The notes under the pieces were generated by a model. The model was not told the origin of the DNA. It worked only from the letters and a program-made list of their open reading frames with translations, and did not search any database. The translations under genes were made by a program, and so were the position numbers. From Clostridia bacterium (GTDB lineage Bacteria; Bacillota; Clostridia; Oscillospirales; Acutalibacteraceae), in NCBI GenBank assembly GCA_017549105.1, contig JAFYVN010000006.1, positions 219,228-283,227 of the forward strand: a DNA stretch of 64,000 bases, given 5' to 3'. Position 1 is the stretch's first letter. Every line of letters starts with the position of its first letter. Of this stretch, positions 14,798 to 17,215 are shown one piece after another.

Positions 14798-15592
14798 TTA
14801 TATAAGAACCTTTGAAAGAAATTCCTTGAGTCTGGGATCCTGCGGATTATCAAAGAAATCCTTGGGGTTATTCTCTTCTTTGATAACACCCTCGTCGATG
14901 AAAACAATTCTTGAACCGACTTCCTTCGCAAATCCCATTTCGTGGGTAACGATAACCATTGTCATACCCGACTTCGCAAGCTCTTTCATAACTTCAAGAA
15001 CTTCGCCGACCATTTCGGGGTCAAGCGCAGAAGTGGGTTCGTCAAAAAGGATAACATCGGGGTTCATCGCAAGCGAGCGCACTATTGCAACTCTCTGCTT
15101 CTGACCGCCCGAAAGCGTTGAAGGATAAGCGTTTGCCTTATCTTCAAGACCGATTCTTGCAAGAAGCTTCATTGCATTTTCTTTCTCGGTCTTTTTGATT
15201 TCATCCTTTGAACGGACAGGTTCTTTTTTCTTTGAAAAAATGTTACGGATTATCGCTTTTCTTCTGTCTGAAAGTGCACAGAGCACGGGTGAAAGCATAA
15301 TGTTCTGAATAACTGTTTTGTTATTGAAAAGATTGAAATGCTGAAACACCATACCGATTCGGCGACGGTGAATGTTGATATTTACCTTGGGATCTGCAAT
15401 ATCGACACCGTTGAAAATAATCTGACCGCCCGTCGGGTCTTCCATACAGTTAAGACATCTGAGGAAAGTTGATTTACCCGAGCCCGAAGGACCGATGACA
15501 ACAACAACATCGCCCTTGTTGATTTTGATATCAATTCCTTTAAGAACATCGACTTTACCGAAGCTTTTCTTAAGGTCAATTACGTCTATCAC
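14798..15592 (-). CDS. polar amino acid ABC transporter, ATP-binding protein (GlnQ/HisP type)
   Basis: A 264-residue cytoplasmic ATPase that powers amino acid uptake. Walker [10 protein letters not shown] (34-42), Q-loop MVFQHFNLF (81-89), signature LSGGQKQR (160-167), Walker B VILFDEP (180-186), switch His in THEMGFA. It is about 20-25 residues longer than usual because of a charged insertion at about 106-134 between the Q-loop and the signature. It starts at GTG, overlaps the permease gene by 17 bp, and has GGAG upstream inside that gene. The order binding protein, permease, ATPase is standard. Confidence 0.93.
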
Positions 15593-16283
15593 TCTTCTTC
15601 AGGCTCCTTTCCATAAATTTGATAAGCACCGTGATGATGCAGACAATTACGATATAAATGATTGCCATTGCAAGATAAGGCACCATAAATTCGTAGCTGT
15701 TTGAACCGATATAGTTGAACGCAACATAAAGGTCTGCCGCACCGATAAACGAAACGATTGAGGTTTCTTTTATCAGAACAATAAACTCGTTGCCGAGAGT
15801 CGGAAGAATATTCTTGACTGCCTGAGGAATAACAATCTTCATCATTGTTGTTGCGAAACTCAGACCAACCGAGCGGCCGCCCTCAGTCTGACCGTAATCA
15901 ACCGACTGAATACCGCTTCGCATAATTTCAGATATGTAAGCACCGCTGTTGAGTCCGAAAACCGCAATCGCAACGCTGACGGAAGGAAGATTGATTCCCA
16001 TAAGAGGAAGCGCAACATAATAGAAAAGCAAAAGCTGAACCACCATCGGTGTTCCTCTGAAAAAGCCTACATAAAAAGTGCAGATTGAGTTAAGAACTCT
16101 CGGAAGTGTCTTATATTTGGGGATAACCCTTACAGTTGCAATAAGAGTACCGATAACGATACCGATAACAAGACCGAGAATTGCGATTTTTAATGTATTC
16201 TCAAGACCTTCAATAACCTTCACATAGCCTTTGTAGTCAATGAGAATTTCTATAAATTTATTTATTTTCGCTTCAAAATTCAT
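15576..16283 (-). CDS. polar amino acid ABC transporter, permease (HisM/GlnP type)
   Basis: 235 residues from the ATG at 16283; AAAGGA lies 8 bp upstream, which rules out the TTG at 16289. About five membrane helices and the inner-membrane signature ([13 protein letters not shown] region followed by [12 protein letters not shown]) typical of His/Glu/Gln/Arg permeases. It forms the membrane channel with the ATPase encoded next. It is preceded by a hairpin (16306-16332) that probably lowers its expression relative to the binding protein. Confidence 0.92.
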
Positions 16284-16305
16284 AAGCAAAATCCTTTTGC
16301 AAACA

Positions 16306-16332
16306 GTAACCCCACCTTTGAGGTGAGGTTAC
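16306..16332 (-). terminator. intra-operon hairpin / partial terminator
   Basis: A 12-bp stem with one mismatch (GTAACC... / ...GGTTAC) and a 3-base loop lies between the binding protein and permease genes. The T-run after it is short, so read-through is likely; such hairpins commonly let the binding protein be made in excess. Confidence 0.6.
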
Positions 16333-16351: not shown

Positions 16352-17215
16352 TTACTGAACTGCGTTGATTGCTTCTGTGATGCAAGCAGCGGGAGCGGAG
16401 TCGATGATAACATAGTTAACACCGCCGTTGATAAGATCCTGAACTGCAAGCGAACCGTTCTTGTAGCCTACGCAAGTTGCTGCAAAACCTGCGAATCCCC
16501 AGCCTTCATCGCCTTCAACGTAGAACTGACCTGTTGTGCCGTTCTGAACGCCGATTTTTGTTGATGCGTCGTATGTATTGAGGATTGCTTCAACTGCTGC
16601 TGCATCTGTGCAAGCATCAAATGTTGTGTCATCACCCTTAACGATGATTCTCTGCGATGCTGAATAGTATGAATCTGTGAAGTTAACATATTCTTCTCTG
16701 TCAGGCTTGATTGTAAGACCCGCCATTGCGATATCGCACTTCTGCTGACCAACGGAAAGGCAAACCGAATCAAAGTCCATATTGCTGATAACAAGTTCCT
16801 TGCCGAGCTTTTCTGCAAGGAGAGCAGCGATTTCCATATCGATGCCGTAATAATCTTCACCCATTGTGTATTCAAAGGGTTCAAAAGCAGCGTTTGTTGC
16901 AACAACAAGCTGATCCTTTGAGGGGTCAAGAGCAGCTGACTTTACAGCTGTGGGAGTGCCGTCACCGAAATACTTGTTGCAGATTTCATCGAATGTGCCG
17001 TCTGCTTTGATTTCAGCAATAAATGCGTTTGCTGCTTCAAGAAGCTCAGGCTGAGTTTTGTCAACACCGAATGCATATTCTTCCTGAGTGAGGTCAATGT
17101 CGATAACCTTTACTGCTGCGGTATCGGGTGTTTCATTGCCGCCGCAACCGAAGAGCATTGTTGCGGTAAGAGCGATAACCATAACTACCGCAAAAATTTT
17201 AACGAATTTTTTCAT
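16352..17215 (-). CDS. amino acid ABC transporter substrate-binding lipoprotein, circularly permuted
   Basis: 287 residues from the ATG at 17215, with GGAGGT 7 bp upstream. A lipoprotein signal ends at Cys24 (LFGC). The domain order is unusual. Residues about 36-85 (EEYAFGV, EIKADGTFDEICNKYFG) match what is normally the C-terminal end of GlnH-like proteins. The usual N-terminal strand (DQLVVATNAAFEPFEY) only begins at about 101. The protein then runs through AGLTIKPDREE, the GTTGQ segment and IIDSAP, and stops where the second hinge would normally lead into the tail. Ligand residues of the family (Ser/Ala-Gly-x-Thr and Arg in the DRE segment, and the late Asp) are present, so it should bind a polar amino acid. 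It is the first gene of the transporter operon. Confidence 0.93.
   Translation of the reverse strand: MKKFVKIFAVVMVIALTATMLFGCGGNETPDTAAVKVIDIDLTQEEYAFGVDKTQPELLEAANAFIAEIKADGTFDEICNKYFGDGTPTAVKSAALDPSKDQLVVATNAAFEPFEYTMGEDYYGIDMEIAALLAEKLGKELVISNMDFDSVCLSVGQQKCDIAMAGLTIKPDREEYVNFTDSYYSASQRIIVKGDDTTFDACTDAAAVEAILNTYDASTKIGVQNGTTGQFYVEGDEGWGFAGFAATCVGYKNGSLAVQDLINGGVNYVIIDSAPAACITEAINAVQ

Follow-up and report, generated by a model that had tools for sequence, protein, structure and literature searches.

In E. coli GlnH, Geobacillus ArtJ and T. maritima ArgBP, family-3 amino-acid-binding proteins of ATP-binding cassette (ABC) importers, the segments run from lobe 1 through lobe 2 to a C-terminal tail, and the anchor enters at the first strand of lobe 1. 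Here we describe a relative from a Clostridia bacterium, encoded in a 64,000-nucleotide stretch (hereafter the window) of contig JAFYVN010000006.1, assembly GCA_017549105.1, positions 219,228 to 283,227. This protein belongs to the same family and has the same segments, ligand-site residues, and permease and ATPase partners, but its segments are rotated: the chain ends in lobe 2, and the anchor appears to enter at the last lobe-2 strand. We consider it very probable that the gene product works as a lipid-anchored receptor for amino acids in an ABC importer and that it is a GlnH/ArtJ-family protein permuted circularly by nature.

Permutation of binding proteins as such is not without precedent. 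TpMglB-2 (Tp0684) of Treponema pallidum, termed 'Type Ic / Cluster Bc', is a lipid-anchored ABC binding protein with a naturally permuted chain; the sections of the article on which we draw mention relatives in Gram-positive bacteria and a speculation by the authors that the permutation is linked to membrane anchoring (PMC4990184). The window protein resembles it in being a natural, lipid-anchored permutant. However, TpMglB-2 is described there as a type I, cluster B sugar-binding fold with a poorly similar permuted part and an added fourth crossover, whereas the window protein is a family-3 amino-acid binder whose moved segment is highly similar and for which a comparable event is seen within one genus. 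None of its Pfam or NCBIfam matches is to a type I sugar-binding family; at an E-value of 0.001, Pfam returns SBP_bac_3 and Lig_chan-Glu_bd. The CPSARST paper lists the glycine-betaine-binding proteins OpuAC and ProX as related by circular permutation; going by its relevant passages, this relationship was found by structure, at <24% sequence identity and in another sequence family (PMC2395249), unlike the permutation here, which separates close homologues and even orthologues. The window protein's order is without a structural match of the OpuAC/ProX kind, and no OpuAC-family Pfam match was obtained at E 0.001, where PF00497 was found instead. Family-3 scaffolds reportedly tolerate circular permutation, as in the arginine sensor cpFLIPR, but that permutant is man-made, while those described here are natural. 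Within the open-licence PMC literature we found no description of a natural permutation in family-3 amino-acid-binding proteins. A first-pass annotation of the window had known of no natural case in this family, in line with that result; other binding-protein families do have natural cases, judging by the parts of the two articles cited above. The novelty lies in natural permutation within family 3, in the occurrence of each of the three cyclic orders, in its repeated origin, and in orthologues with and without the permutation.

Rotated segment order of the binding protein

By sequence reading, the 287-residue open reading frame (ORF) starts with an ATG at 17215, preceded by GGAGG, and the protein begins MKKFVKIF. 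Its layout is as follows.

16352..17215, minus strand: circularly permuted family-3 amino-acid-binding lipoprotein, type 1 (tail - lobe 1 - lobe 2), 287 amino acids plus stop
17147..17215, minus strand: signal peptide, residues 1-23, with lipobox LFGC (from sequence)
17144-17146, minus strand: lipobox Cys24 (from sequence; invariant among 57 aligned proteins)
16961..17110, minus strand: tail module, residues 36-85, comprising the last lobe-2 strand, hinge 2 and the C-terminal helices, conventionally the C-terminus (PDB-sequence matches, model, module profiles, rotation scoring)
16919..16960, minus strand: linker, residues 86-99, bridging the ancestral C-terminus and the ancestral N-terminus (alignment and rotation scoring)
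16628..16918, minus strand: module b1, residues 100-196, most of lobe 1 plus the hinge-1 strand (LVVATNAAFEPFEY ... YYSASQRIIV), with conserved Thr168 and Arg173 (alignment, module profiles, rotation scoring)
16358..16609, minus strand: module b2, residues 203-286, lobe 2 up to the new C-terminus, with conserved Asp272 (alignment, module profiles, rotation scoring)

The canonical SBP_bac_3 order of lobe 1, lobe 2 and C-terminal tail is thus replaced by tail, lobe 1, lobe 2. PF00497 matches the protein at 109.6 bits (cut-off 26.4) in two stretches, so that a standard Pfam scan reads it as an ordinary SBP_bac_3 protein and the permutation stays hidden. A genome-wide search of the source assembly (63.9% complete) places the two pieces in reverse, with profile positions 97-131 upstream of positions 1-110; the one further family member seen in this genome is matched as a single conventional stretch. 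In a phmmer search of PDB sequences, the conventional arginine/glutamine-binding protein AncQR aligns through its C-terminal end (180-233) with residues 32-85 and through positions 11-173, its N-terminal part, with residues 102-278.

All 264 rotations of the mature chain were scored with a profile built from 48 conventional sequences, one of them E. coli GlnH. The best-domain score is 165 bits in the native order, covering profile positions 5-175, and peaks at 212 bits, covering 5-230 of 232, for rotations starting at residues 88-97. The whole-sequence score, which sums separate pieces, remains nearly constant (209.1 native versus 212.8 rotated), which fits with no segment being missing or extra: every segment occurs once, in rotated order, and rotation restores a single full-length match, the pattern of a natural permutant. 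The first-pass annotation had proposed a circularly permuted amino-acid-binding protein with its tail directly after Cys24 and all segments present once, and had suggested a rotated alignment with GlnH; these scores bear the proposal out, as do the conservation and operon context described below and a confident AlphaFold model with a mean predicted local distance difference test score (pLDDT) of 90.1 and values of 90-97 for residues 31-90 in blocks of ten. Together with secondary structure and the rotation scores, pLDDT favours packing of residues 36-85 as the C-terminal strand and helix of the fold.

In the arrangement we propose, the ancestral C-terminal strand and helices would sit at the N-terminus, directly behind the lipoprotein cysteine; the 14-residue linker would connect the moved tail with what was ancestrally the first strand, and the last lobe-2 helix would end the chain. 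The same two-lobed clamp would form, with an amino acid in the cleft, and would dock on the permease encoded alongside, tethered on lobe 2 and not on lobe 1. The rotated-profile alignment, combined with lobe limits of T. maritima ArgBP taken from an excerpt of the literature (PMC9402392), suggests that the anchor lies on lobe 2, ~11 residues ahead of the last lobe-2 strand and ~20 ahead of hinge 2, so both chain ends would be located in lobe 2. An anchor exactly at the hinge, as initially envisaged, would therefore be slightly misplaced, but its displacement from the start of lobe 1 would stand.

Conservation and a recent permutation in another genus

Scanning one genome per species yielded 207 loci, and the best 80 were kept. 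All 80, from other assemblies and at 64-95% identity, carry the tail before the body in one ORF, which answers the earlier suggestion to look for homologues with the same order. Two of these loci (L060 and L061) come from two contigs of one metagenome-assembled genome (MAG; JAFQOW01), with equal identity and equal neighbour-ORF position, and are possibly duplicate contigs. When the window protein was aligned with 56 of the relatives (67-95% identity to it), the front tail proved to be conserved as strongly as the remaining protein. The rotated order is also present in the named strain Cuneatibacter caecimuris DSM 29486 (one locus) and in two single-contig genomes (G252 and G281). Nonsynonymous over synonymous divergence (dN/dS), by a simple Nei-Gojobori count against five relatives, came to 0.028/0.36, 0.055/0.63, 0.058/0.62, 0.072/0.87 and 0.10/0.83, or about 0.08-0.12: the permuted gene is under purifying selection.

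Another genus, g120 of family f46, holds both forms. Among its 78 scanned genomes, 20 have a full-length permuted gene (492-596 bits), 54 match best with the body alone and 4 give only weak matches; the 33 fetched from the 54 body-only genomes all have the conventional order by module profiles. The two forms occupy the same locus: one and the same pair of genes lies downstream of the conventional gene in G144, G217, G194, G299 and G318 and of the permuted gene in G117 and G259 (BPD_transp_1 and ABC_tran matches in G117, a BPD_transp_1 match for the first gene in G259). Upstream neighbours are common to G144, G217, G194, G117 and G259; in G299 and G318 no match to them was obtained. A tree built from 21 permuted loci (20 genomes) and 35 conventional loci (34 genomes), 56 in all, joins the permuted loci in one clade with support 97/94. 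This clade is nested among conventional loci both in the midpoint-rooted 56-locus tree and in the wider tree of 110 proteins described below, making a change from conventional to permuted most likely.

The rearrangement can be followed at the DNA level between the permuted gene of G117 and the conventional gene of G144 (coordinates given as G117 = G144). The signal region (8-184 = 8-184, 73%), the body (388-902 = 220-749, 83%) and the 3' flank (946-1009 = 951-1015, 83%) correspond, and a 149-bp tail block has moved (187-335 = 760-908, 81%). Most permuted g120 proteins have a spacer between tail and body that ends like FTT(I/V)EEG; it resembles the spacer at the N-terminus of conventional neighbours, where many have FTTVESG. 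Spacer likeness and moved block fit a C-terminus fused to a mature N-terminus with subsequent loss of the outer parts. The rearrangement at this locus is recent and of the same kind as that of the window protein, in another genus. As the mechanism, we regard duplication and truncation as rather probable: one copy's C-terminus would have become joined to the mature N-terminus of the copy behind it, and truncation would have removed what lay outside.

A second permuted order and the number of origins

Module profiles applied to the ORFs of 213 sources revealed a second permuted order, type 2 (lobe 2 - tail - lobe 1), so that all three cyclic orders of family-3 modules occur in Clostridia. The window protein belongs to a large type-1 clade and is not an isolated case. 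Five rows with stops inside the match (L143, L145, L147, L151, L152), seemingly adjacent tandem genes, turned out to be single type-2 permuted ORFs. At L277/L285 (G481), modules read b1-b2-t-b1 from the contig end, and the locus is not assigned to any of the orders.

How often did these orders arise? On a tree of 110 distinct proteins, with modules aligned in conventional order and type-1 rows of L001-L080 thinned to 14, type 1 needs three order changes and type 2 six; well-supported branches require no fewer than three and four, respectively. A single origin of all type-1 proteins was tested in parts only. The approximately unbiased (AU) test rejects the divergent type-1 groups L135-L140 and L141-L142 as a single clade (p 8.2e-07), while the core with L135-L140 is compatible with one (p 0.171). 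For type 2, a clade of one group with L198 is rejected (p 7.2e-09) and the union of both main groups more weakly (p 0.021). These p-values are weakened by the fact that groups were named once the tree had been seen; in addition, L208, the sister of the core clade, has support of only 83/85, and several type-2 rows sit on long branches. As a cautious minimum, each permuted order arose at least two times.

Some proteins carry the permuted domain in larger assemblies. L194 (1151 amino acids), L157 (1000), L284 (779) and L294 (1006) contain two or three tandem b2-tail-b1 repeats. By Pfam, a permease follows in the same chain in L194, L157 and L284, and an ATPase in L194 as well (L294 was outside the Pfam scan), which would make L194 nearly a whole importer in a single chain. 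The arrays, including L193, can be read as repeats of permuted b2-tail-b1 domains or, alternatively, as central conventional domains with a split pair at both ends. Their best PF00497 stretches span the repeat junctions (e.g. L157 178-395), and b2 of the second L193 domain was not matched by the module profiles. As they are readable in two ways, the arrays are not counted as separate proof of the second order. The front half of a 619-residue ORF at L197 matches Peripla_BP_4, a type I sugar-binding family (44.4 bits, cut-off 35.1), and is joined to an amino-acid-binding domain of the type-2 permuted order. The 537-residue ORF at L156/L174 joins one type-2 permuted binding domain directly to a permease (PF00528, 85.2 bits); here the membrane domain would be attached to the lobe-2 end instead of the lobe-1 end.

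Operon, ligand site and competing explanations

Two transporter genes follow the binding-protein gene, both assigned by profile matches.

15576..16289, minus strand: amino-acid-type ABC permease (HEQRo_perm_3TM, BPD_transp_1)
14798..15592, minus strand: GlnQ-like ABC ATPase, in which a clade-specific insertion follows the Q-loop region and precedes the LSGGQ signature

The permease is of the polar amino-acid type (TIGR01726, 81.9 bits, cut-off 42.2). The ATPase reaches 122.4 bits with PF00005 (cut-off 25) and stays below the NCBIfam GlnQ cut-off. Its insertion before LSGGQ is variable and basic and adds 23 residues to the usual spacing in the window: the distance from FNLF to the signature is 70 here and 56-93 in 93 of 95 core type-1 matches (47 in the other two), versus 47 in all 37 conventional and all 33 type-2 matches. 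Permease and ATPase lie on the same strand at 78 of the 80 related loci, 76 of them in the order binding protein, permease, ATPase; the remaining two are L037, which reaches a contig end, and L064. A 12-bp inverted repeat containing one mismatch (GTAACCTCACCT / AGGTGGGGTTAC; 16306-16332, minus strand) was noticed by eye in the gap from the stop codon of the binding-protein gene to the start of the permease gene; it may set the receptor:permease ratio.

Thr168, Arg173 and Asp272 align with ligand-site residues of GlnH and show no variation across the 57 aligned proteins; their counterparts are presumably Thr70, Arg75 and Asp157 of GlnBP, which we take to be the residues that bind the alpha-amino and carboxylate groups of the ligand. 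The side-chain contact positions, which we assume to be Asp10, Lys115 and His156 in GlnBP/GlnH, are occupied here by Asn108, Gln224 and Ile271. With the backbone-ligand residues kept and the side-chain contacts unlike those of GlnH, some amino acid different from glutamine is the probable ligand, and the permuted protein should act as an ordinary clamp receptor with a changed tether.

Three other explanations deserve consideration. The source genome is incomplete and in 12 contigs, and the relatives are mostly MAGs as well, so a chimeric contig joining pieces of two binding-protein genes might be suspected; yet an assembly or binning artefact has practically no chance of being correct, as the order recurs at all 80 loci, in single-contig genomes and in a named strain, and the gene is an open frame under purifying selection. 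Assembly error, which the first-pass annotation had named as a possible refutation, is therefore rejected. That the gene is a pseudogene or encodes a non-transport protein such as a sensor, retaining the fold without import, could be argued from the indirect way in which we arrive at ligand and transport, but it is highly improbable given a dN/dS of about 0.1, invariant ligand-site residues and a permease followed by an ATPase at 76 of 80 loci.

A remnant of a GlnPQ-like tandem receptor, with the tail of a lost first domain in front of a second domain that lacks its own, is closer to the permutation we propose and differs from it only in history and in the use of the front tail. Its appeal is that the best PDB match is 6h30 (GlnPQ, tandem SBD1-SBD2), aligned across the domain junction, and that permutations, historically, probably form this way. 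We nevertheless consider a mere remnant very unlikely: the front tail is as conserved as the rest, completes the rotated profile and is confidently modelled, and in g120 the permuted genes stand where genomes of the conventional form have a single-domain gene.

Several points weigh against a functional permutant born by duplication and truncation. We infer the amino-acid ligand from residues and operon, and our grounds for placing residues 36-85 in the usual groove are pLDDT, secondary structure and rotation scores; structure aligners bound to sequence order leave most of the tail unaligned, and sequence searches found no solved type-1 permuted structure among the 60 top-ranked rows out of 76 in one search and out of 103 in another. 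The stem of the core clade is long, at 1.0 change per column, so that this clade's own event is not readable in DNA. A t-b1-b2-t intermediate, conventional with a duplicate tail, was seen neither in the ORFs of the 213 sources nor in the loci of two further sets, g120 included; duplication/truncation was thus not caught directly.

What do these rearrangements mean for the family? In a gut bacterium, the tail piece of the binding protein of an amino-acid transporter has been shifted to the front, and our data indicate that rearrangements of this kind happened several times in Clostridia, once recently enough for both forms to exist inside one genus. Going by the published accounts excerpted above, earlier binding-protein permutations lie between distant structures; with both orders in close homologues and in same-locus orthologues of one genus, breakpoints, direction and functional cost become directly testable. 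More tentatively, the three orders, the repeated origins and the two cuts that both lead to lobe-2 ends may reflect selection, as a shift of the anchor, or of the permease in the fused proteins, from lobe 1 to lobe 2 would alter which lobe is tethered and with it opening or docking. Repeated events at two sites raise the question of whether such cuts are merely tolerated by the fold or whether tethering through lobe 2 is useful.
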